Positions 4,749-22,945 of a stretch of DNA of 44,148 bases are shown piece by piece. A program made the position numbers and the translations under genes. The notes under the pieces are model-generated. The model had not been told where the DNA came from. It made no database searches and saw only the letters and a list, made by a program, of their open reading frames with translations. Each line of letters begins with the position of its first letter. Within the stretch, counting starts at the first letter, position 1. The stretch is taken from assembly GCA_034717495.1 (NCBI GenBank), contig JAYELL010000039.1, positions 1-44,148 of the forward strand. The letters are read 5' to 3'. This stretch comes from Chloroflexota bacterium (GTDB taxonomy: Bacteria; Chloroflexota; Anaerolineae; JAAEKA01).

Positions 4749-6197
4749 ATGTCCTGCTGTGGAAATGAATCTATGCCTTTCAAGATAGCGAATTCACCAA
4801 ATCAGAGAGATGCAACACACCGGGCGCTGAAGCTGTGGCACAGGGATCCGACTTTCGGCAGCCCCCTTGACACGATGCACGTGGTGCGTGCGGCCATGAC
4901 CGACAATGGCGACATCAGGCAAGCCACGAATCAAGTATTACGCGATGCGCTTGCTATCCTGGAAACGGAAGACCAGCGCGCTGCACGATTGTTGAGATTA
5001 CGGTTTCTGGACGCCAGGATGGTCTATCAGGTATCCAGGGCGATGCATGTGGCTGAATCGACCGTCTACAGACTTCAGGAAGGGGCGATAGGTCGCCTCA
5101 GTGAAATCGTCTGGTCCATGGAGTTGCGAGCTCGCGCAGGTCGCCGGCAAGAACTGGAGGTTCGCTTATCCTCTGCCAATATGTTTCAGCTGGTTGGCGT
5201 GGATGCTCACCTGAATAGACTCGCCGAAACTCTTCGTTTCCCTCGGGGACCATGGATGGTTGCCTTGGAAGGAATCGGTGGAATCGGCAAATCCTCATTG
5301 GCTGCTTCCCTGGTACTCCGACTATTTGAAGAGGATAGCTTTCATGAGTTCGTATGGTTAAGTGCACAGCGGAATCGCCTTAACCTCGGCGGCGTTATCG
5401 AGTTGGTCGAATCTCCCGCGCTGACTGCTCAGGCCATGATCGACGCCCTGGTGACTCAGCTGATGGGTGATGTGACCGGGGCTGGTTCGCCTTCCGGTGA
5501 CCAGGTTTTGGCCATGCTGCAGAGACGGTTGAAGCAGGTCCCAACCCTGGTCGTCGTCGATAACCTGGAAACCCTATTGGACGTCGAGAGTCTGATGCCC
5601 GTAATTCGTCGCCTTGTGGGTCCAAGCAAATTCCTGTTGACCTCTCGGGTAAGTCTTTTTTCAGAAGCGGACATGTTTCACTTCGTGGTGCCCGAATTGG
5701 ATGAAGCGAGCGCCTTGAGGTTGTTGCGGCAGGAAGCCCGTTCACGAAACCTGCCACACCTGGAATCATCCGAAGACAGCGATTTGAAGCGGGTCTACGC
5801 GATTGTAGGCGGGAACCCTCTCGCTTTGCGTCTGATTGTCGGTCAGAACCACGTTCATGGGTTGGATACGATCCTTGGTGACCTCGAAAAAGCGCGCGGA
5901 CAAAAATCAGAGGTCCTTTACACCTATATTTACTACCATGCGTGGCAAAGTCTGGATGAGCTGTCCAGACGAACCCTGCTGGCTATGCCTCTCGTAATGG
6001 ACCGGGGTGGAGACCTGGCCTATTTGACACAGGTCACCGGGTTGGATCACGTTGAGCTACGGGGAGCGTTGGACCATCTGGTTACATTGAACCTGGTCGA
6101 TGCCTTCGGGGGACTAGATCATCGCCGGTACTCAATCCACAACCTGACCCGAGCGTTCCTTCAGAAACAAGTTGCCAAGTGGCAGTCCCAATGTTAA
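4749..6197 (+). CDS. STAND-type ATPase with HTH-like N-terminus
   Basis: Domains in order: an N-terminal helical region (about residues 55-125) with AARLLRLRFLDARMVYQVSRAMHV then STVYRLQ that looks like a sigma-region-4-type helix-turn-helix; an NB-ARC-like NTPase with Walker A GIGGIGKSS (175-183, Lys181), Walker B LVVVDNLETL (267-276), the sensor LLTSR (296-300) and GGNPLAL (354-360); and a C-terminal winged-helix-like region to 475. STAND ATPases are signal-dependent switches that oligomerise on ligand recognition. This protein has no built-in repeats of its own, but the next gene encodes them, so the pair probably behaves as one split STAND protein. The start is ATG 4749; ATG 4773 is also possible. 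I infer a regulatory or conflict-related role. Confidence 0.8.
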   Translation: MSCCGNESMPFKIANSPNQRDATHRALKLWHRDPTFGSPLDTMHVVRAAMTDNGDIRQATNQVLRDALAILETEDQRAARLLRLRFLDARMVYQVSRAMHVAESTVYRLQEGAIGRLSEIVWSMELRARAGRRQELEVRLSSANMFQLVGVDAHLNRLAETLRFPRGPWMVALEGIGGIGKSSLAASLVLRLFEEDSFHEFVWLSAQRNRLNLGGVIELVESPALTAQAMIDALVTQLMGDVTGAGSPSGDQVLAMLQRRLKQVPTLVVVDNLETLLDVESLMPVIRRLVGPSKFLLTSRVSLFSEADMFHFVVPELDEASALRLLRQEARSRNLPHLESSEDSDLKRVYAIVGGNPLALRLIVGQNHVHGLDTILGDLEKARGQKSEVLYTYIYYHAWQSLDELSRRTLLAMPLVMDRGGDLAYLTQVTGLDHVELRGALDHLVTLNLVDAFGGLDHRRYSIHNLTRAFLQKQVAKWQSQC

Positions 6198-7432
6198 TTC
6201 CTGAGCACTCTTCCCATTATCCTGACATTTTCCAGGATTACATTGTCAGAAGTGCCGGGTACATGCTTGGTACGGTTCAGGATGCCCAGAATCCGATTTC
6301 ATCCGGCGATCGGGATCAGGCGCTTCACGTTCTGAGCTTCGCTTTGGGTCTCACGGACGCGTGGCCGTTCGCCCGCGATCTGCTGCTAACCATGGCATCC
6401 GAAATGGAACAGGCTGGCTATCGTGATGAATGGATTCCCTTTTTGGAGAAGGGAATCTACCGGAGCCAGGTCCTTGGCGATTGCCGAGCCGAAGCCGAAC
6501 TTCGCTTTCACCTGGGAATCCTCTATCAGTTGCTTGGCAAATACGACCTGGCTTGCGCTCAGTTTGTTGCAAGCGCAAGCCGGTGGGAATCCACGGATGA
6601 TGTTCGAAACCTGGCCAAAGCTCTGAATCGTCATGCCTACGTTGCCCGCCTTCAGCGTCGCCTTGGCAAGGCAATCGGGTTGGTTGAAAAAGCGCAAAAG
6701 CTGCTGCAGGCAGATGATTCTGAACGAGCATATTCTTTATTTGTTCAGGGCACAATCGCCTTCGACCAGCGGAAGTGGCAAAGTGCATCACGCTCTTATC
6801 AGGCATCCTTGGAAATATGGAAACAGCACGGCGACGGCCGCATGACTGCCTGGAGCCTGACAAACCTCGGTACAACCTATCGAGCACTGGAGCGCTACGA
6901 CGAAGCCATCGCCTCTTATGAAAAAGCCATTGAACTGTTTGAATTGGTGGGAGATCCTGTCCACCAGGCGGCTGCAAGAATGAACTTGGGCAACGTATAC
7001 ATGTCAGCCAAACAGTTGGCCAGGGCGCTGGAATTCTACCTGATGGCGGAACCGGTATTTCGCAAGACGCAAGATAAACTGCGATTGGCAACAGTCTTCG
7101 GCAACAAGGCAATGGTGTATCGACAGTTACGGCAGTGGGATGACGCAGAGCGAGCCTACCGGTCAGGCCTTGAGTACGCTTGCGAGATCGGCAACGTTCG
7201 ACTGATGGTCAACGCTATGGACGGCCTGGGACAAACGCTCCTCTCCACGGGTCGATATCAAGCGGCAATGAAAATCTTCGCAGATGCCATCGAGCAATTG
7301 GATGGCGACGAGAGCATTGAAAACCTGGAAAATCTTCGACATTCCGTGACAACCCACATGAACCAGGTTAGGGCTGCATTGAGGGTTGATGGGGACCCTC
7401 ATGAGGAGGATCCCCATTCCGAAATGACCTAA
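6191..7432 (+). CDS. TPR-repeat protein, partner of STAND ATPase
   Basis: About 413 residues made almost wholly of tetratricopeptide repeats. The clearest are AWSLTNLGTTYRALERYDEA, AAARMNLGNVYMSAKQLARA, ATVFGNKAMVYRQLRQWDDA and NAMDGLGQTLLSTGRYQAA, spaced about 40 residues apart. TPRs bind proteins or peptides. ATG at 6191 overlaps the STAND stop (ATGTTAA), which indicates translational coupling; GTG at 6179 would also keep the frame but adds only four residues. STAND ATPases normally carry such repeats on the same chain, so this looks like a natural split of sensor and ATPase. The 3' end meets a small minus-strand gene tail-to-tail with a 4-base overlap. Confidence 0.85.
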   Translation: MLIPEHSSHYPDIFQDYIVRSAGYMLGTVQDAQNPISSGDRDQALHVLSFALGLTDAWPFARDLLLTMASEMEQAGYRDEWIPFLEKGIYRSQVLGDCRAEAELRFHLGILYQLLGKYDLACAQFVASASRWESTDDVRNLAKALNRHAYVARLQRRLGKAIGLVEKAQKLLQADDSERAYSLFVQGTIAFDQRKWQSASRSYQASLEIWKQHGDGRMTAWSLTNLGTTYRALERYDEAIASYEKAIELFELVGDPVHQAAARMNLGNVYMSAKQLARALEFYLMAEPVFRKTQDKLRLATVFGNKAMVYRQLRQWDDAERAYRSGLEYACEIGNVRLMVNAMDGLGQTLLSTGRYQAAMKIFADAIEQLDGDESIENLENLRHSVTTHMNQVRAALRVDGDPHEEDPHSEMT

Positions 7433-8378: not shown

Positions 8379-10367
8379 TTAGAGCTCGAGTTCAAGTCGG
8401 TAGCCATGTCCTCGGACCGTGATGAGGTATCTGGGGTTCTCAGGATCAACCTCGATCTTTCGGCGCAACCGGCTCATGGCGCTGTTGAGTCGACTGCGCT
8501 CCCAAATCGCCAGCCCCTCCCCCTCTTCTTCGCCTAATGCCTCTTGGATGATTGTGGCGCGGGTGCAGAGGTTCCCGGCGTTCTCAAACAGATAACTGAG
8601 GATAGAAAAGTCCTGAGGAGTCAAATCTTTCTGTTGTCCTTCGACCCAAACGACCTTATTTGCCTCATCTATCCACAGGCTTGAGCTGGCTTGTGCCGGA
8701 AGTTCCTCGGGCGGTTGCGCTGTTCCCATAAGCCTCTCATACAGCATGGCCGCCTGCAGAAGGCTCCGGACAAACGGCATGAGTTCGCGGCGCGTGAAGT
8801 ACTCGACGCCTGGATCGAAGGTGGCGACGTGAGCAAGGGCACAGGCCAGAAGACCTGCGATGTAGGCATCCAGGTTGGGTCCAGCCGTCTCAGCGGCAAT
8901 CCGGCGAATCTGCATCACGTTTTTTGCGATCTTCTCTTGTGCGGGCGACAGACGCTCGGTGGGCACGGTTTCGTTCAGACTGTCAACGGCCAACAGGTGC
9001 TGTTCCAACAGGTGAAGCGCAGGCAGTCCCATGCCGTCAAGTAAATAGGTCTTCACGGCATTTTCCAGCCGGACAAAATCGCGCAGCAACGGTCCCTCTG
9101 CCACATGGCTAAAACCGATGAGCCACGTCCATCCTGCTGTATCCACCAACACCGAGTCGGTATCAACTCGGCCGTGAGTAACGCCACAGAGCACGGGATG
9201 TTCGATGAGGGTCGGTTTCTCGGCGAACAAGCGGCCAGGGTTGGGGAAAGAGAGGGTCGAGCCTGATTGCAGGTCAAAGCTGAGGGCGTCGGGTGAACAA
9301 TCGATGCGCGCCATGCCTTCAGACATGGCTTTTTGGCACAGCTTTTCCATTCTGTCAGACCAGGTGGCCTCAATCGATTCGCCATCCAACCCCAGCCAAT
9401 CGAAATAAAGTGATTGCAGGCTGTTGTCCTCGGCATAGCTTTGTTTGGAACTGTGCCAGGGCGCCAGTGAGGTCTGGTAGAGCTGCTCCAAAGCCGCTCT
9501 AACGCTGTCAGCGCTGTGCCGACGATAGTACACCGACAAAGGCTCCATCGACTCCAGGTCGCCATCCACAAGGCGATAGGCAGTTGCGGAAAACCGCACA
9601 CTTTCCTTGAAACCGTTACTGGCCATACGCGTGCTGCCTCGACCAGCACCTCTTGGCACCAGGTTTTCGAAGCGCCCTGCTTCCTCCAAAATGGGTTCGC
9701 GCAGTCCGCAAGAGACCACACATTGTCCCCGCAGTTCATTTCCACCGTATGCGAACACCTCGGTGTCGATCTGCCCCTTGCCGCGACGCAGCACTTGGCC
9801 GATAGTAATCTGTTTATTGGCGAAGAAGAGCTTTCGAAAGAGATCTTCAAGTTCGGCAGCGCGGTCCGGAATCCGAATACTGTTCGTTTCGGGCGCGATC
9901 AGTTGAAGCAAGTGATGAAATGAGGATTGCCGACTCCAGTGGATTGGCAGGTCCCAGTTGATTCGAACATGGTTGGCGAAAACTTTCTCGATCACATCAT
10001 GCAATCTGTCAGGGCCTTCAGGCTTGCTGACAAAGCCGACTATCATTGACTGGTCGTCAAGAACCAAGTCGAGCGTTTCGCGGAGATGCTCTTGCTCGTA
10101 GGCGGTAAGAATAATCTTGGGAATGTGTTGACAGGTATCTTTCAGTGCCCAAAGAAGACCGCTTATGTCTTCCGGATCATCATCGTCTTGCATGCGAATG
10201 TCTATGATGGCGACTTGGAAATACTCATCTTGCCAAATTCTATCTGCATCTCTCAAGGTATGCGCTTTTTTTACCCGGTATCCCTCGTGTTCAAGGAGTC
10301 GCGCGTTTAGGTCTAAAAAGCTCTTCCTATTATCCAAGAATAGAATCGTTTTTGAATGATCATACAT
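8379..10367 (-). CDS. Response regulator: receiver, degenerate phosphotransferase-like core, OmpR winged helix
   Basis: 662 residues from ATG 10367, which has GAGG eight bases upstream; the longer start at 10412 is less likely. Residues 5-130 are a receiver, with Asp56 (VAIIDIR) as acceptor and Lys115 (VSKPEG). Residues about 150-550 contain a region resembling the aminoglycoside-phosphotransferase/kinase-like domains of bacterial signalling proteins: a LEDLFRKLF start, an N-lobe-like strand set, then THGRVDTDSVLVDTAGWTWLIGFSHV (398-421), where HGDL-x3-N and DF-like motifs would be expected. The aspartate after HG is Arg400 and the DF-like aspartate is Gly418, so catalysis is unlikely. Residues about 560-662 form an OmpR/PhoB winged helix (LTPQDFSILSYLFEN, SRLNSAMSRLRRKIEV, RGHGYRLE). 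It is the last gene of the operon, 72 bases after the giant kinase. I infer a DNA-binding output. Confidence 0.82.
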   Translation of the reverse strand: MYDHSKTILFLDNRKSFLDLNARLLEHEGYRVKKAHTLRDADRIWQDEYFQVAIIDIRMQDDDDPEDISGLLWALKDTCQHIPKIILTAYEQEHLRETLDLVLDDQSMIVGFVSKPEGPDRLHDVIEKVFANHVRINWDLPIHWSRQSSFHHLLQLIAPETNSIRIPDRAAELEDLFRKLFFANKQITIGQVLRRGKGQIDTEVFAYGGNELRGQCVVSCGLREPILEEAGRFENLVPRGAGRGSTRMASNGFKESVRFSATAYRLVDGDLESMEPLSVYYRRHSADSVRAALEQLYQTSLAPWHSSKQSYAEDNSLQSLYFDWLGLDGESIEATWSDRMEKLCQKAMSEGMARIDCSPDALSFDLQSGSTLSFPNPGRLFAEKPTLIEHPVLCGVTHGRVDTDSVLVDTAGWTWLIGFSHVAEGPLLRDFVRLENAVKTYLLDGMGLPALHLLEQHLLAVDSLNETVPTERLSPAQEKIAKNVMQIRRIAAETAGPNLDAYIAGLLACALAHVATFDPGVEYFTRRELMPFVRSLLQAAMLYERLMGTAQPPEELPAQASSSLWIDEANKVVWVEGQQKDLTPQDFSILSYLFENAGNLCTRATIIQEALGEEEGEGLAIWERSRLNSAMSRLRRKIEVDPENPRYLITVRGHGYRLELEL

Positions 10368-10439
10368 TAGGAAAACCTCGCTGTCAGCTCGACTGGCCGA
10401 GTTCAACCTCAAAACGAGCAGAAAGGCATTTCTGCGTCA

Positions 10440-13400
10440 CTATTCTTTCCCACGTGGTTTCTCACAGGGTAACCGGAAGCAAATTTCTGTGCCTTCGCTG
10501 TCAGAATGGACAACATTGATGTCGCCACCAAAGGCCTTGACAATTGCAAGAGCCTGCAACAGGCCAGAACCAGATCCCTTTTCCCCAGGCTCTTTCGGAA
10601 TCCGCCCCTTGAAAGCCAGGGCTGCAATGGGGGAAGGGATTCCTCGCCCGGTATCCCTGATTGATATCTGAACATGATTGTCTACCAGCCAGGATCCAAC
10701 AATCACCGTTTTATCCGGCCGGCTTGATCCTTCCATAGCTTGGACAGCATTCTCTGTCAGTATCGTGAGCAACTCGCGCATCCAGGCTTTGCTTGCGCGA
10801 ACGTTCACCAATTGATCCGTTTCATCTTGTAGATCGAGTACCAACTCGATACCATGTTTTTCGTTGTAGCGATATTTCTTCCATCTTCTTTCAAAGTACT
10901 GTTTTAAGGTGCTGTTGATGTCCAAAGATTGGACAGTTCCATCGGATGTCAAAGGTTCTGTTATGGGAATGTTTTCGATTTCCTTGATCTTCCTCTCGAG
11001 TTGTTCGGCCTCTCGCAGCATTTCTTCATTCTGTCCCATCAGGTTCTTCAACAGCTTCACGTGAGCTAACGCTTCTCCTACTTCTCGATTAATGCTGTGT
11101 CCCCAGCTGCTCGCCACCATCCTCATCCAATCTACAGCATTTTGCGAGCCTACGTAGCCCTTGATTTCCTGAATGTCTCTGTACTGTCGGGCATTGTCGA
11201 GCGCGACTGCCGCCTGCGCAGCCAAGGCCTCCAGCGCCATCTTATCGGAATAATCAAATGCATCCTTTTCTGGATGTTCAACATTGATGACTCCGATGAC
11301 ATGCCCGTCGATTTTGATCGGTACTGCCAGATCTGAATGTGTTGCGGGATGACACTTCAAATAGTCGGGGTCATTCTCAACGTCACCCACCAGCTGAGAT
11401 ATTCCGGTTCGGGCAGCTCGCCCCATGATACCAATACGGCCTTCAACGCCTTCCTCCAAATCTACTTCTTTAGTGAGGCACTCACGAAGTCTCTCGTGTT
11501 TTTCGGCTGGAAAAGCTGAAACTAGTCTTGCCGCATTGTTTTCGATCAGTCGGATGCATGCGAAGTTGACTGGCCGATTCTCATCTCCAGCAAGATGCCA
11601 AGCCTGCTCTACAAGGCGCTTCAGAGTCTCATCAGAGTCGAGGGACCCGGTTACGATTCGGCCCGCTCTGTTCAGTGCTTCCAGAACGCCGGCACGCCTG
11701 TCTGCCTTTTCGAACAATTGTTCATCGTGGATCGCCACGGCTGCTTGATTGGCGAAAAGCTGAATGTCGGTGAGTTCATCGTCGGTGAAACGATGGAGCT
11801 GTCGATAGTTGATAAACATCACACCTTCTCGCTCATCACCTACGCGTAGTGGAACGGCCACAAGAGATTTTATCTCTTCTCTCCGAGAGAAGTCACTGTT
11901 CATAAACATGGGGTCTTTGGAAGTGTTCGGCACATCGATGTAAGGCCTATTGCTGTTCAGTATTTTGAACACAAGAGAACTCTTTAGCCAACTATGAGTA
12001 TCGTTCACCATGTCAGGGTCATTCACCCCGGTCATTCTCGGTGGATAATCAAACCGATCATTCTCTGCATCATATGCATAGAGAACTACGGCATCGCATC
12101 TCAGGACTTCCTTGGTGCCCATCACTACTGATTCCAAAGTGTTCTCAAGTCCCTGCAGAACCGTCATCTCGGCGACCAACCGTGCTGTGGCATGTGCTTC
12201 TCTAACGCGTCGACGCAGCCGCTCCTTCTTGAGTGCAAGAGCCGCATAGTCTGCGAATGCCAGTGTAATTCGCTTCTCTTCCTCCGTGAAACCGCGCGGC
12301 CGGCCGTAGTTAATGTACAAGACACCCAGCTTTTCGTCACCAGTTCGAAGGCAAACACCTTGAAAGCTACGGACCCCATTTAGCCGAAGCCGTCGAGCGG
12401 TAGTTGCCCCAAGGAAGGGATAACTTTTCTCATCCAGGATGTCCTCGACGCCGATCCAACCCTGATCCATGACCATTGTCGCTGTCCCATCCACGCGAGG
12501 AGCCGCTTTCCGGAATGCATGCCAGTTATCTTCGGATATCCCCGCGGCTGTCGACTCTTCGATAAGGAAGATTTCTTTGGCTTCGTCAAAAGACCAGACT
12601 GCAGCCGATTTGGCTCGAAGCACTTGAACCGCGCTCGCTGTAATTTGGCCCAACACCTCGCCCAGGCTATCCGCGGCGGTCAGTTTGCCAGTTGACTCAT
12701 GCAAATTCTCCAGGGTTTCAATCCTCTGCGAATTATCATAAGCAACAGCCGCCTGGTTGGCGAAAAGCTGCAAAGCATCTACCTCAAATGATTGAAAACG
12801 TCGGGGTTCATTGTAATGGATCCACATCACCCCGATTCTCTCATCATGCACCGCAAATGGCAAGCAAAGCGCAGCGCGAACACCCCGGTCTTTCATGTAT
12901 TGGTTGACAGGACGATGGTGTGTTTCGACGTTTTCGATAACTTCTGGAATGCCGGAATCAATTACCTGTCGGGAGATCGATTCCTTCGACCCCTTTCTGA
13001 CGATCCTGTCGACATCGTTGACACCTCCTTCGCCTTTGACAAGAAGATTTCGGGCGTGGCCCCTGTTGTCAATCAGGACCACGCTCACCCATTCGGCGTG
13101 AGCTATTTTCCATGCACGTTCCACGGCGTCTTCAAGTACTTGCTCAGGTGTGCCGATGGCAGTCAGGGTAACGGCTGCCTCAAAGGCACCACGCAGTTCG
13201 CGACGGGCATTCTCAGATGCGGTCAATGTCTTCGCGTTAACCAAAGCGGTCGCGGCGTGGTCTGCGAACATTTGCAGTAGGTTGGCGTCGCTGACTCCAA
13301 AATTTCGGCCTATCTTATCGTCCACGTAGAGTACGCCAACGATCTCCTTCCGCCATCGCAGCGGTACCTCTATCACCGCGCCGAAAGGGTGTCCTTCCCG

Positions 13401-16160
13401 GAAATTGCTGGCCTGGTAAATAGAGGTAGAGTAGTCGGCGGTCGCCAGGTAGGGCCTTTCGCTTTGCACGAGCCTTCCCGCCATGCCATCATTAGTCTTC
13501 AAGACCTGCCCGACGACCCCACGATTTCCTGGAAAATCCGCAGTGATAGTCAGTTCTTCTTGCTCTCGATCATATTCATAGACGCCGCCACTTTGCGCAT
13601 CAAGAAGCCTCACAGCCCGCGTGATTATCTCTTCGAGAAGAGGTGCCTGTTCGACTTGATTTGCCACGCGCAAGGCACCCTGTCGTACCCGCTCCAACTG
13701 AATCGCTTGACGTTTAGTGTCGTCTAATAGTTTAGCGTTGTCAATGGCAATGGCGGCCGTATTGGCGAACGAGATCAGCGACTGGACTGTTTCATTGCTA
13801 ATCGGATCCCTTGTGAACCTGTTATCGGCAACCAGGAGACCGATGACTCTTGCCCGAGAACGGAGTGCCACCACAACCAAAGGTGCTTGCGGTTCGAATT
13901 TCTCACGGAAGATTCGTGGTAATTGTGCAATATCCTCCGGTGATTCCAGTCGCTGCCAGTGACCTGATTGAATCACCTGTGAGAAAACGTCGGACTTATC
14001 CGGATCAATGTCGATTCCAAGATCAGCGATCCGGTCTCCAATTGGTGTCCGGGGCAAAGCCATGAACCTCAAATACCTGCGGAAGAACTCACTACCTTTG
14101 AGTTCTGGCACTCGGAACTCGTCCCAGACTCGTTGATTCTGATGCTTATGCAGATGTCCAACACCCATCTTGCCAACGAGTTTGTCTTCATCTGGTTCTC
14201 GCAAAAATATGGCTGCTCGATTGAGACCTACGCCAAATCCTGCGGTGACACTTGTCAGGATCAGTAAAAAAACCTCGCTGAGGCCTTCGGCCGATTGGAT
14301 GGAATCGCTTATGCGTTGGTAAATGGCAGACTGTGCGAATATCCGTAATTGGGCATCCAGATATTGGATGTCTTCGAAATGACCAAGAGCTCCTACTGTT
14401 TGCCCCAGCGCATCACGGAGCCAGGTTACTGCCAAACGCACGGAAACAGGCTGGTCTGTCTTGCTTCGCAGAAGGGCTTCGTAGTCGGCAATCCTGCCAT
14501 CAGCAGAAGCGCGTAGTCGATTACCGATATTGTGAGCTTCCTCCGGCCGGAAATAGAGTTCCCCCACAGGTTGTCCCAGCAATTCCTTCTGGCGATAGCC
14601 CAGAATTGCCTCCGCGCGACGGTTTAGGCCGATCACCCTACCCTGGAGATCGTTGGCAATCACCGCTGTCGGCGAATTAGTCATGAATTGCCGCCAATAA
14701 TCGGCATGCTCTCTGGTGACCTCGTACATTTGCGCATTGTCCACCGCAGACGCTACCTGTCCGGCCAGAATCATGCACAGATCTATCTCGTCCTGGCTAA
14801 ATCTTCGCTTTCGTCCTATCGCATCCAGGCTAAACGAGCCGATGATCCTATCGTTAAAGATCATTGGGACAACTAGAATCGACTCGATGCCAAACCCTCG
14901 CAAGGTGTCCCGGACTGGTCCCAGAGCCTGTTGATTGGCAACATCGTAGATTACCAAAGGCCGTTTTGAGCGCACAAGGTTTTCCTCGTCAGAAACGCCG
15001 TCGACTTGAATGATCGTACCTACTGTGTTGATATTCTTCGGAAATTCAGCCTTGACTACTCCTTGGGCGAGATTCGGATCAAACAGAACTAAGCCGCTGT
15101 GATCGACGTCAAAGAGTTCCACGGCGGCGCGGCAGGCTACTTCCAGAGTTTCGGTTAAGTTTAAGTTCTCATTTAGTGCTTCACTTACCTCCTGAATCGC
15201 TTCAAGTTTCCGAGCGCGCCACTCAGCTTTTAAGGAAGCTTCATGTTCCTGTTGACGCAATCGAGTATTCTCAATAGCGGCAGCGGCTTGAATGGCAAAA
15301 ATGGATATTGGGTCCAGTTCCGACGATGTAATTCTTCGTTTTGTTTCTTTGTTATCGGCCGATATTTTTCCAATTACCTGGTCGTGCAAAATAAGGGGAA
15401 CACATGCCCACTCAATCACATTCTCCTTACCTAGATCTTTTTCGCGCGCGGCTATTTCCCCTTCAGCCAACCGAAAAATAGTGGATTGGGGATTCTTTAA
15501 AAGCCTTTGCATATACTGATCTTCGTTCAGTGGAATGTTAAAACCCACAAAACTAGATTCCATACCAACGTGGGCCTGCCCGATCAAGCATTGGCTTTCT
15601 TCATCCCAAAGATACAGGCGTATTCTATCGAATCCCAAAGCATGTACGCCGTTTGCGATGCTCTGTAGTATCTCTTCTAGGGTAGAACCGCTTAAAAGAG
15701 CCACGCCACTCTTCATCAAATTCCGCAGGATTAAACGTTCATGCGCACCTTCCTTCAGTTTCCGATACTCGGCGGCATACTCGATCATGAATGCCAATTC
15801 GTCGATATCAAACGGCTTGCGGATATACCGGTATGCGCCCTGACGCATTGCCTCCAAGCCTGAGTCAAGGCCCCAACCTGTAAACAGAATAAACTCAGTG
15901 ATCTGGCTTCGATCGCGAATGGCCTTCATCAATTCGATGCCTAGAGGTTCCGGTTCATTCTCCCCAGAGGGAATTATCATGTCATCGATCAGCGCTACAT
16001 CAAATGATTCTGACCGGGTTTCGACCTTTTCCAATGCCTGTTGAAAGCTTTCCGCCTCATCAACGATGTATCCACACTGCTCGCGAAGAATCCTTGCCAG
16101 CGGCTTTCGCAGGCTGGCCTCATCGTCGACAAGAAGCACGCACAAAGATTGGTCTGTCAT
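10440..16160 (-). CDS. Giant hybrid histidine kinase: receiver, 8 GAF, PAS
   Basis: 1906 residues, soluble, no membrane segment. Receiver 7-135 (Asp60 acceptor, Lys114 in RKPF); GAF at about 145-300 and 325-480; PAS 487-600 (SPTAVIANDLQGRVIGLNRRAEAILGY); a larger GAF at 605-815; then GAFs at about 822-980, 985-1145, 1150-1315, 1320-1485 and 1490-1660, many ending in the typical LFANQAAVAIDN helix; a dimerisation region with His1688 in WGHSINRE; and an HATPase with N-box ENAVQAM (1803-1809), DTGRGIP (1837-1843) and GSGSG (1862-1866). GAFs bind small molecules or mediate dimerisation. The receiver at the N-terminus suggests phosphoryl input or feedback from a partner. It begins seven bases after the S1-kinase stop. 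The histidine box is divergent, so autophosphorylation on His1688 is a proposal. Confidence 0.9.
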   Translation of the reverse strand: MTDQSLCVLLVDDEASLRKPLARILREQCGYIVDEAESFQQALEKVETRSESFDVALIDDMIIPSGENEPEPLGIELMKAIRDRSQITEFILFTGWGLDSGLEAMRQGAYRYIRKPFDIDELAFMIEYAAEYRKLKEGAHERLILRNLMKSGVALLSGSTLEEILQSIANGVHALGFDRIRLYLWDEESQCLIGQAHVGMESSFVGFNIPLNEDQYMQRLLKNPQSTIFRLAEGEIAAREKDLGKENVIEWACVPLILHDQVIGKISADNKETKRRITSSELDPISIFAIQAAAAIENTRLRQQEHEASLKAEWRARKLEAIQEVSEALNENLNLTETLEVACRAAVELFDVDHSGLVLFDPNLAQGVVKAEFPKNINTVGTIIQVDGVSDEENLVRSKRPLVIYDVANQQALGPVRDTLRGFGIESILVVPMIFNDRIIGSFSLDAIGRKRRFSQDEIDLCMILAGQVASAVDNAQMYEVTREHADYWRQFMTNSPTAVIANDLQGRVIGLNRRAEAILGYRQKELLGQPVGELYFRPEEAHNIGNRLRASADGRIADYEALLRSKTDQPVSVRLAVTWLRDALGQTVGALGHFEDIQYLDAQLRIFAQSAIYQRISDSIQSAEGLSEVFLLILTSVTAGFGVGLNRAAIFLREPDEDKLVGKMGVGHLHKHQNQRVWDEFRVPELKGSEFFRRYLRFMALPRTPIGDRIADLGIDIDPDKSDVFSQVIQSGHWQRLESPEDIAQLPRIFREKFEPQAPLVVVALRSRARVIGLLVADNRFTRDPISNETVQSLISFANTAAIAIDNAKLLDDTKRQAIQLERVRQGALRVANQVEQAPLLEEIITRAVRLLDAQSGGVYEYDREQEELTITADFPGNRGVVGQVLKTNDGMAGRLVQSERPYLATADYSTSIYQASNFREGHPFGAVIEVPLRWRKEIVGVLYVDDKIGRNFGVSDANLLQMFADHAATALVNAKTLTASENARRELRGAFEAAVTLTAIGTPEQVLEDAVERAWKIAHAEWVSVVLIDNRGHARNLLVKGEGGVNDVDRIVRKGSKESISRQVIDSGIPEVIENVETHHRPVNQYMKDRGVRAALCLPFAVHDERIGVMWIHYNEPRRFQSFEVDALQLFANQAAVAYDNSQRIETLENLHESTGKLTAADSLGEVLGQITASAVQVLRAKSAAVWSFDEAKEIFLIEESTAAGISEDNWHAFRKAAPRVDGTATMVMDQGWIGVEDILDEKSYPFLGATTARRLRLNGVRSFQGVCLRTGDEKLGVLYINYGRPRGFTEEEKRITLAFADYAALALKKERLRRRVREAHATARLVAEMTVLQGLENTLESVVMGTKEVLRCDAVVLYAYDAENDRFDYPPRMTGVNDPDMVNDTHSWLKSSLVFKILNSNRPYIDVPNTSKDPMFMNSDFSRREEIKSLVAVPLRVGDEREGVMFINYRQLHRFTDDELTDIQLFANQAAVAIHDEQLFEKADRRAGVLEALNRAGRIVTGSLDSDETLKRLVEQAWHLAGDENRPVNFACIRLIENNAARLVSAFPAEKHERLRECLTKEVDLEEGVEGRIGIMGRAARTGISQLVGDVENDPDYLKCHPATHSDLAVPIKIDGHVIGVINVEHPEKDAFDYSDKMALEALAAQAAVALDNARQYRDIQEIKGYVGSQNAVDWMRMVASSWGHSINREVGEALAHVKLLKNLMGQNEEMLREAEQLERKIKEIENIPITEPLTSDGTVQSLDINSTLKQYFERRWKKYRYNEKHGIELVLDLQDETDQLVNVRASKAWMRELLTILTENAVQAMEGSSRPDKTVIVGSWLVDNHVQISIRDTGRGIPSPIAALAFKGRIPKEPGEKGSGSGLLQALAIVKAFGGDINVVHSDSEGTEICFRLPCEKPRGKE

Positions 16161-16167
16161 GGTTCGG

Positions 16168-18432
16168 TCACTCCAGTTTTGCAGCCGGCAACGAGATTAA
16201 GAATGTTGTTTCGAAGGGCACGACGCTTCTCTCGACGCGAATAGTCCCCCCCAGGGACTCGACCAGGTTTCGGGCAAAGTACAAGCCCAACCCCGATCCC
16301 TTTGGACGGGTAGAAAAGCCGAGGGCGAAGATGCGCTCCCAGAGCACTTTATGGATTCCTGGTCCATTATCGGTAAATCGAATCTGAACGGGCCTTTGAC
16401 TGCTCGTGTCGAACGTTGTACCGACCATAAGCATTCCGTCCTCCGCTTTGATGGACGAAACATGTTGAATGGCGTTGAGCATCAGGTTTAGAAAAACTTG
16501 CTGGAGCGCCGCCGGATTGCCGGCCGCCGCGGGAAGGTCGGAAAAACGCTCGATCTGAATCTTAACGCGGCTCCGTCGGGCGGTGGAGCGCATTAACGCT
16601 GCTGACCGTCCCAATACAGTGTTGACATCGACCAGGCCGCCTTGGCCCGGTCGCATCATTTGCTGAAATAAGCCTATCGTCGTGCGCAACTCTGAAGTAG
16701 CCCCTGTCAGTGCTTCGGCCTCCGCCTTAATGTTCGCAAAACCGGAGATATTGACCACTTCCGAATGATTTATCTGCAGAGCGTTGCAGTCGTTTTGCAG
16801 GTTTCTGAGTCGCATCTCGATGCCCGACAGCGCATTATAGATGTCATGGCCCATGCCAGCCGCCATCTGGCCATGAAGGACGAGCGTATTGACCTGCTGG
16901 ACGTGGCGGGTCAACAGGTCGCGCTCCAACGCCGCTGACAATGAGATTGCCGTAGCCAGGGCATCTCGCACTCGATAGGGATGAAAGGCATTTTGGGTTT
17001 TCGCAAACAGAAACAACCCATGATGCGTATCTTCTTGCATCCTGACAGGGACACCGATGCAGGATCCAAAGGGAAGTAAGCCTAGCAGCTTCTGGAACTT
17101 CCTCTCGGCCCGTGCTGGAACCTGGTTCTCGAAAACAGTCTGGTCTTCCTCGATGACATCGCCAACGGGACTTTGCTCCAGCCCATAGAGGGCCTCTCGG
17201 TGGATCATCGCATCGCCTGCCTGGGCTAGAACCGAGATTGCTGCAGAGGTTGAGCTCTTGTGAAACAACAGCGCGGCATCAGCCTTGCTAGCCTTCACCA
17301 GGTGTTCTAAGCCGCTTTGCAATTGCTCGGTTAGTGACCCACCCCGTTTTATGGCGCTTGCAAAGGTCTCGAATGGAGCCTGTTGATCACTGGTGGCAGA
17401 CGATTCAGTTGCTCGCCAGGGTACCAGCGGTTTTCCAGAGTTGACGGCCTGAAGAAACTCCCTGATCTCCGTTAGGTCAAGAGGTTTGGAAATTACTGCT
17501 ACCACGCGCAGGGCTTCGATATCGAGTACGCGCTCGGCCAGCCATTCTGGTGTGCTCATGACAGCGATTGCTGTCTCTGCCAGGTCCTCTTGTCCATCCT
17601 TCAACAGATCCAATCCATCCTCGCCGGAAAGATCAATATCCAGAAGCATGGCAGCGTATTGTTCTGTCTTCAACCGGGCTCTGGTAGTGGTCAGGTCGCC
17701 GGTGTTTTCAGCCTGACATCCTAGACCTATCAGCCAGTTGACCAATGGAATGGCGACATCCTCGCGATCGTCGACGACAAGAATCTTTCCATTCAAAACC
17801 AGCCTATCTCTGATGTGCTCGTCGAGTGCTCTTGCCTGAGTGTCATCTTGTATCTCCGGCTCATGGCGTGCTTGCAGGCGCTTCCATTTCTCCAAGGCCT
17901 TTGCTGCCTTGGCTATCTGCAACGAGCGTTTCCGAACGCTGAGCCGGACGTTACGTTGTTTGGCGTCGATTCGGGTGATGACCGCTTCTACGGTATCTTC
18001 CACCCAGACCACGTCTTCCGGACGTTCAACTTTCCACGTGGCTAGTTGATCCAACGGCACCAGACCGTCAACACCGGGAAGAATCTCCACAAACGCGCCG
18101 TAAGGCCTGATACTAATGACTGTTCCCTGAACGACGCTGCCAACCCTATACATCGTCGCGACTTTATCCCACGGGTCGGCGAGAGTGGCTCGATGGCTGA
18201 GTTCCATATGTTTGCCAGTCTCGGGCAGCTTGATGATGATAGCCTGAACGCGGTCGCCCTCCTGCACGATTTCCAGCGGTTCGAATGAGGAGGCCCAGGA
18301 AAGCTCTCGGCGGCGAATATAGGCCTGCGTGCCGTCGGTCAGACGCACAAAGACGCCGAACGGAAACACTTGCTCCACAATGGCGTCGACGCCTTGGCCA
18401 ACATTGAATGCGGATTTGCGTTGGCTGCTCAT
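16168..18432 (-). CDS. S1-S1-receiver-GAF-histidine kinase hybrid
   Basis: 754 residues from ATG 18432; a start at 18513 would run into transposase remnant sequence and is rejected. Residues 12-82 and 96-168 are two S1-type OB folds: EQVFPFGVFVRLTDGTQAYI then REL, and GTVISIRPYGAFVEILPGVDGLVPLDQL with a following DAKQRNVRLSVR. S1 domains bind single-stranded RNA or other oligomers. A short helical linker is followed by a receiver (216-335; acidic pair DD221-222, acceptor Asp265, Lys316), a GAF-like region (about 360-505), a dimerisation helix with His529 in GMGHDIYNALS, and an HATPase with Asn653, DNGPGI (688-693) and GSGLGL (712-717). All key kinase residues are present. First gene of a three-gene operon. 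No strong Shine-Dalgarno is visible before the start. S1 plus histidine kinase on one chain is not an architecture I know as established. Confidence 0.85.
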   Translation of the reverse strand: MSSQRKSAFNVGQGVDAIVEQVFPFGVFVRLTDGTQAYIRRRELSWASSFEPLEIVQEGDRVQAIIIKLPETGKHMELSHRATLADPWDKVATMYRVGSVVQGTVISIRPYGAFVEILPGVDGLVPLDQLATWKVERPEDVVWVEDTVEAVITRIDAKQRNVRLSVRKRSLQIAKAAKALEKWKRLQARHEPEIQDDTQARALDEHIRDRLVLNGKILVVDDREDVAIPLVNWLIGLGCQAENTGDLTTTRARLKTEQYAAMLLDIDLSGEDGLDLLKDGQEDLAETAIAVMSTPEWLAERVLDIEALRVVAVISKPLDLTEIREFLQAVNSGKPLVPWRATESSATSDQQAPFETFASAIKRGGSLTEQLQSGLEHLVKASKADAALLFHKSSTSAAISVLAQAGDAMIHREALYGLEQSPVGDVIEEDQTVFENQVPARAERKFQKLLGLLPFGSCIGVPVRMQEDTHHGLFLFAKTQNAFHPYRVRDALATAISLSAALERDLLTRHVQQVNTLVLHGQMAAGMGHDIYNALSGIEMRLRNLQNDCNALQINHSEVVNISGFANIKAEAEALTGATSELRTTIGLFQQMMRPGQGGLVDVNTVLGRSAALMRSTARRSRVKIQIERFSDLPAAAGNPAALQQVFLNLMLNAIQHVSSIKAEDGMLMVGTTFDTSSQRPVQIRFTDNGPGIHKVLWERIFALGFSTRPKGSGLGLYFARNLVESLGGTIRVERSVVPFETTFLISLPAAKLE

Positions 18433-18902
18433 AATTTTCGGAAGCACTTGTAGTCGATGAAGGGAACCATTATCTGCAATGATATCACAAAATGGACTTT
18501 TTGTGCTGACCATTTTGCTGTCAGTTTGCTCGCAATCGTCTTGTTTTCACCCCGAATGCGTTCCGCCCCCCAGGTCAGGTTATCCGCGGCCATTTGCCGG
18601 ATGAGTGAAATGGTCTCAGCAGGGATTCTCGGTGATTGTGACTTGGGATTGGACTTTCGTCGCCAGATGAAACGAAAGAGTTCACGATGCCAACGCAGAA
18701 TCGTATCGGGTTGGACAATGAGCAGAGCGTGCTTCCAGAAAGGAGTGGCGCGAAAGAACAAGAGGAGTTTGATGCGATCGAAGTTATTGAGTTGCGGATG
18801 CTGGCTCTGGCGTTGGAGGATGATGAATTGCTGACGCAGGAGGGCGTTTTCGGCGATGAGATCGGCTTTGCTGCGAGTCAGGTCGGCGGTAGCACCACGC
18901 AC
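18433..18902 (-). pseudogene. Integrase-type transposase, N-terminal fragment
   Basis: Residues 1-119 of a frame starting at 18902 match the front of integrase-core transposases common in Chloroflexota: a leucine-rich ENALLRQQFIILQRQ helix, a DTILRWHRELFRFIWRRKS segment, and a helix-turn-helix-like ETISLIRQMAADNLTWGAERIRGE. After about base 18545 the reading becomes unrelated and no DDE catalytic core follows. The rest of the frame to 18433 is therefore likely native leader of the S1-kinase gene. The insertion relic sits directly upstream of that gene and may have replaced its original promoter. A C-terminal fragment of the same family lies at 22612-22945. Confidence 0.72.
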
Positions 18903-22611: not shown

Positions 22612-22945
22612 TCAGTTCGCTTGGGTCGAGCGACTCCATTTGAGCAGTTGCATGGTCAAAACTACGTTCCACCCCAGCAATAGAACGAGGAGATGCAACA
22701 ATTGCCATGCACCTGGCGTGCGAAAGCAGCATTGGAGCGCGTTGACACCCCTTGCTTTGACCCCCAGTAGAAAACCGTGCCTCTTTCCTGAACCGAGTTG
22801 ATCAGCCGGTGGGATCGGGATGCGTTGCTGCAGGCCCTGGTGTGGCCTTGCTTTCTTGTAGAACGCCACGAATTCTTGCGAGACACCATTGAGATGCCTG
22901 TAATTGAGGATGATCATGTGATCCAGGCACCCCCTGCGTAAGGTC
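22612..22945 (-). pseudogene. Integrase-type transposase, C-terminal fragment
   Basis: The frame reads CLDHMIILNYRHL, then FVAFYKKARPHQGLQQRIP, the hallmark end of integrase-core (rve) transposases, where a Y-N-ARPHQGL motif closes the catalytic domain. Everything upstream of the CLDH segment (the DDE core and N-terminus) is missing. The tail after RIPIPP does not resemble a coherent protein. Together with the N-terminal fragment at 18433-18902 it brackets the PadR/ABC/SDR cassette, both on the same strand. Confidence 0.75.

Follow-up and report, generated by a model that had tools for sequence, protein, structure and literature searches.

The gene at positions 16168–18432 of the minus strand encodes, as judged from its sequence and predicted structure, a soluble sensor histidine kinase with a tandem pair of S1 domains as its predicted input module, and it heads a conserved three-gene operon with swapped outputs. 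The gene, hereafter referred to as gene 1, is located in a 44,148-nucleotide stretch of Chloroflexota DNA (the window). The original prediction, made from the sequence of the window, had described the domains and the kinase residues of the protein, and these calls stood; the strand (minus) had not been given, and the three-gene relay with swappable effectors had been missed. The observation is more interesting than first reported, because gene 1 heads a conserved three-part relay. The operon and the domains of gene 1 are as follows:

16168–18432, minus strand: gene 1, S1-S1-REC-GAF-histidine kinase; 754 aa, ATG at 18432, stop included
17929–18399, minus strand: tandem S1 domains of gene 1, residues 12–168, similar to domains 3–4 (D3–D4) of ribosomal protein S1
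17455–17784, minus strand: receiver domain of gene 1, residues 217–326
16966–17337, minus strand: GAF-like domain of gene 1, residues 366–489
16180–16920, minus strand: kinase core of gene 1, residues 505–751, with phospho-acceptor His529, N box Asn653, G1 Asp688, F box and G2
10440–16160, minus strand: gene 2, REC-PAS-multiple GAF-HATPase histidine kinase; 1906 aa, starting 7 bases past gene 1
8379–10412, minus strand: gene 3, REC, TCAD9/APH-like part with the catalytic loop lost, Trans_reg_C winged helix; 677 aa, 27 bases past gene 2

The plus strand across 16168–18432 is rich in stop codons. An alternative start of gene 1 at ATG 18513 is possible and would yield a 781-aa product; relatives begin near the later ATG at 18432. 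As had been proposed, a receiver, a GAF-like domain and a complete kinase core were found on one 754-residue chain, with Pfam matches above cut-offs for Response_reg (residues 217–326, 41 bits, cut-off 30), GAF_2 (366–489, 34 bits, cut-off 29) and HATPase_c (639–751, 66 bits, cut-off 26; N, G1, F and G2 boxes present). The catalytic residues named in the original prediction, His529, Asn653 and Asp688, had been correctly placed and are invariant across the relatives that cover each of them (30/30, 29/29 and 28/28, respectively). Five HATPase_c positions, N653, D688, G690, G714 and G716, are invariant in the family, and Asp265 and Lys316 of the receiver are invariant among relatives. The Pfam HisKA profile gave no match in gene 1, despite the presence of His529 and of the DHp helices; in the predicted model DHp is formed by two long helices, and the fold matches DHp-CA structures. 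The matches listed after VIA-align comparison of the model were of the kinase type only and were uninformative for the S1 part. No clear transmembrane segment was found in the hydropathy profile of gene 1. Both parts that define a histidine kinase, DHp and HATPase_c, are present as judged by sequence and model, and autophosphorylation is predicted. Gene 1 has the H, N, G1, F and G2 boxes and the DHp-CA fold in common with AtoS/ZraS-like soluble HisKA/HATPase_c kinases and differs from them in its input, where S1-S1-REC-GAF takes the place of periplasmic or PAS sensing.

The identity of the N-terminal part was established by sequence and fold searches. The Pfam S1 profile matched gene 1 in two copies (E 1e-29, 103 bits, cut-off 22), and in an S1 family search of the genome the single copies scored 68.4 and 44.1 bits, each over the cut-off. 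A search of PDB sequences aligned residues 12–167 end to end with residues 192–347 (domains 3–4) of E. coli ribosomal S1 with an E value of ~7e-50. An AlphaFold2 model of gene 1, built from five sequences (mean pLDDT 73, N-terminus mostly 77–90), contains two five-stranded barrels of the OB type at the N-terminus, and Foldseek placed D3–D4 of Vibrio vulnificus S1 at rank 2 overall and at the top for the S1 region (E 1.5e-15, 31% identity). By these measures of sequence and modelled structure, residues 12–168 are two genuine S1 domains whose nearest relatives are D3–D4 of ribosomal protein S1. The claim that the chain is led by two S1 domains was therefore confirmed by the Pfam, PDB and Foldseek matches, which place the segment in the nucleic-acid-binding S1 family and rule out an OB family that does not bind nucleic acids. 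An extra copy of ribosomal S1 was also ruled out, as the 30S S1 equivalog models scored 158 bits versus 624 and 122 versus 368. Gene 1 shares with bacterial S1 D3–D4 the tandem S1/OB folds; unlike ribosomal S1, it has two S1 domains only, fused to a kinase, with a family-specific R-x-R-E in the first domain.

RNA-contact positions were read from an alignment with the S1 domain of PNPase, in which the residue positions agree with the published ones. The RNA site of PNPase S1 consists of Phe19, Phe22, His34, Asp64 and Arg68 (PMC6832287). The equivalents in the second S1 domain of the window protein (S1b) are Tyr111, Phe114, Pro126, Asp156 and Arg160, four of the five classical positions being retained or conservatively replaced, and in the first domain (S1a) the same positions are occupied by F, F, R, E and H. 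Across the family, S1b has Asp in 24 of 27 members, Arg or Lys in 25/27 and Phe or Tyr at position 22 in 24/27; the aromatic residue at position 19 is present in about half of members only, and the His34 position is split between Pro (about half) and His. In S1a the first aromatic residue is retained, the second is present in about half of members, and the equivalents of Asp64 and Arg68 are lost in most of them; the region of His34 is replaced by a near-invariant R-x-R-E (Arg42 in 29/29, Glu43 in 28/29). The S1 domains carry no consistent net positive charge across the family. Judged by these residues, RNA binding through S1b is plausible, and S1a has been remodelled, perhaps to fit the same ligand or perhaps another one.

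The architecture of gene 1 was found in ~30 Chloroflexota genomes. Sampling 396 genomes of the class yielded 21 with a full-length member, together with two fragments at contig ends; three more full-length homologues come from another family of the same phylum, and at least two more were found in GTDB contigs, labelled Anaerolineaceae and Herpetosiphon, by a scan with two kinase-motif patterns that can miss members, so a range limited to Chloroflexota is not established by it. The recurrence of the fusion in ~30 genomes excludes a chance event, and a chimera or an assembly artefact was rejected on the same ground. Plasmid or phage carriage was also rejected: no record among 72,556 plasmid and 50,697 phage records covered 80% of the gene 1 protein. 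One locus carries, at L160:2878-3645, a lone 256-aa S1-S1 protein that ends inside the receiver and has no adjoining gene 2, probably an eroded copy of the family.

Identity of gene 1 homologues to the window protein ranges from ~42% down to <30%. When calculated by part, mean pairwise identity was 42% for HATPase, 38% for the S1 pair, 35% for GAF, 31% for REC, 25% for DHp and 13% for the linker. Distances between S1 pairs were correlated with those of the kinase (Mantel r 0.87), of the C-terminal part of gene 2 (0.77) and of gene 3 (0.76). Conservation close to the level of the ATPase and co-divergence with the other parts argue that the S1 pair is an old and selected part of the kinase. In the tree, members of one taxonomic family sit in both main clades and the spread is patchy and taxonomically mixed; the mixed clade membership fits either horizontal movement or differential loss.

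A gene 2 homologue, a large REC-(PAS)-GAF(n)-kinase, is the next gene in all 28 loci where sequence extends beyond gene 1. The junctions are mostly tight or overlapping across loci, and the overlap between genes 1 and 2 is often 4 bases. The third gene could be read in 23 loci; it is of the REC-TCAD9 type in 22 of them (one, L151, counted by position and size only) and EAD7-REC-CHAT in the remaining one (L144). The C-terminus of gene 3 is a winged helix in the window and in L029, L030, L032, L033, L142 and L145 (partial in L158), TIR in L154, CHAT followed by TIR in L031 and caspase in L163; other loci have no output domain. His/Cys dyads are visible in the sequences of the CHAT and caspase outputs, and PADLOC matched effector domains of relatives to its ThsB, chat and caspase models. 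Several loci add an nSTAND-like ATPase with a winged helix or a receiver with a TRADD-associated two-TM domain. The type of output did not cluster on the phylogeny beyond chance, the class without output including loci cut by contig ends. In L031 (12400-15339) the TIR part of the CHAT-TIR output gene is interrupted by a transposase gene.

The middle part of gene 3 matches both TCAD9 and the aminoglycoside phosphotransferase (APH) family of Pfam in relatives. The window protein scored 37.9 bits against TCAD9 (PF19974, cut-off 40), many relatives being above the cut-off with 55–146 bits. The TCAD9 part has a pLDDT <50 in the predicted model of gene 3, and its kinase-like identity rests on the Pfam APH/TCAD9 matches of the relatives. 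The clade whose outputs are proteolytic, TIR or absent retains an intact catalytic motif, HGDLHxxN, which the winged-helix group including the window has lost (HGR..., IGF); in the window lineage this kinase fold would, by its sequence, act as a scaffold or a sensor. TCAD9 modules without an S1 kinase also exist (L191, L193, L195, L198, L204 and L206). All of them have GAF-kinases, either alone or after an nSTAND-like ATPase, an nSTAND-GAF-HATPase fusion or a SpoIIE-GAF protein, and all keep the HGDL core. The S1 kinase thus seems to be one front end among several that can be exchanged.

Bacterial immunity and programmed-death systems typically use effectors such as TIR, CHAT and caspase, and the output domains suggest, by analogy, a response to danger inside the cell that is akin to immunity or programmed death. 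An S1 kinase that reads RNA, as the original prediction had proposed, is plausible from the residues retained in S1b. In the reading that we prefer, and to which we give even chances, the S1 kinase is the front of a cytosolic relay that reads RNA or the ribosome/RNA state and triggers a stress or immune-type response. We infer RNA as the ligand, phosphate flow from His529 to the gene 3 receiver, an immune or death role in relatives and a transcriptional role here. Single-stranded RNA, or a changed ribosome/RNA state, would bind the S1 pair, the linker helix would relay the signal to the dimeric kinase, and the GAF domains would contribute small-molecule or redox input. Phosphate from His529 would be transferred to the gene 3 receiver, directly or via the receivers of genes 1 and 2, and the phosphorylated receiver would free the output, which would be winged-helix transcription in the window and proteolysis (CHAT, caspase) or TIR activity in relatives. 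The stronger version, an RNA-triggered phosphorelay immune system of Chloroflexota composed of an S1 RNA sensor, two kinases and a swappable CHAT/caspase/TIR or transcription-factor output, is put forward only tentatively. The reading of the S1 pair as an RNA alarm is weakened by the loss of the Asp64/Arg68 equivalents from S1a, by the frequent Pro for His in S1b and by the lack of consistent positive charge. The immune reading is weakened as well, since the output in the window is an ordinary winged helix, the flanks are mostly metabolic and genes 1–3 of the window match no protein model of PADLOC.

S1 domains can also bind proteins, or be structural in RNA-processing enzymes with no part in signalling. 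The S1 pair might accordingly be a docking module that tethers the kinase to ribosomes or to the RNA-decay machinery, the signal entering via the GAF domain and the receiver. We regard this as unlikely, although it is the best of the alternatives: the pair resembles D3–D4 of ribosomal S1, it is separated from the kinase by an intact receiver and a GAF-like domain, and gene 2 adds many GAF domains, but GAF, receiver and DHp are all less conserved than the S1 pair, and D1–D2, the ribosome-binding part of ribosomal S1, has no counterpart in gene 1. It is improbable that the operon is a conventional two-component relay that controls transcription under metabolic or redox stress, with S1 as a neutral spacer and the immune-like outputs of relatives incidental. 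The winged-helix regulator of the window, the lost catalytic loop of TCAD9 and the SDR, ABC-transporter and PadR-type neighbours on one side would fit such a relay; the conservation and co-divergence of S1 argue against neutrality, and the repeated swaps to CHAT, TIR and caspase argue against coincidence. The most doubtful alternative is that the pair binds a small nucleotide or a cyclic oligonucleotide messenger made in stress or infection, not polymeric RNA, for which speak the use of TIR, CHAT and caspase outputs in nucleotide-signalled immunity, the R-x-R-E of S1a, unlike canonical S1, and the frequent Pro at His34 of S1b, and against which stand the RNA-facing Asp, Arg and one aromatic residue that S1b retains in most members and the absence of any recognisable nucleotide cyclase from the scanned operon genes.

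A search of the open literature, which covers only a minority of subscription papers, turned up no description of an S1-histidine kinase, and two surveys of S1-domain proteins (one of them PMC6832287) do not mention histidine kinases. The original prediction had treated the existence of many known S1 kinases as grounds for abandoning its claim of novelty; none came to light in this literature, and a nucleic-acid-binding input domain on a two-component kinase is, as far as could be found, apparently undescribed. The ternary/STAND conflict systems of Kaur, Iyer, Burroughs and Aravind occur in Chloroflexi, and they have APH-like kinases, receivers, EAD7, TIR, caspase and S1 parts in common with the window family (PMC7159879, PMC8195603); the Pfam name TCAD9 itself carries the "ternary complex" label of these systems. 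There S1 is an effector part, fused to OST-HTH or KH, whereas in the window family it is the input of a histidine kinase, and according to the authors no histidine kinase is found among vWA-associated effectors (PMC7159879). The MoxR-vWA ternary systems carry MoxR and vWA, in contrast to the S1-kinase operon, which has neither; both genes are absent from genes 1–3 and from the flanking genes of the window that were scanned. The family joins a ribosomal-type RNA-binding module at the sensing end to caspase, CHAT, TIR or winged-helix outputs. If its ligand is RNA, it would link two-component signalling with nucleic-acid surveillance and would be a phosphorylation-based counterpart of NTPase-based danger sensors.

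The genes that flank the operon in the window are mostly metabolic, with SDR, ABC-transporter (ABC-2) and PadR-type genes on one side. The latter are flanked by two short minus-strand ORFs, 18432–18902 and 22615–22917, which were judged by eye to resemble the N-terminal and the C-terminal part of an integrase-type transposase and had no Pfam match. An NB-ARC-type STAND NTPase gene (4749–7429, plus strand), followed by a TPR gene, runs towards the kinase operon and meets its end in convergent orientation, and these genes are possibly part of the same signalling neighbourhood. At 38–1480 on the plus strand there is a gene for an ADP-ribosylglycohydrolase with a dual-specificity-type phosphatase domain fused at its N-terminus.
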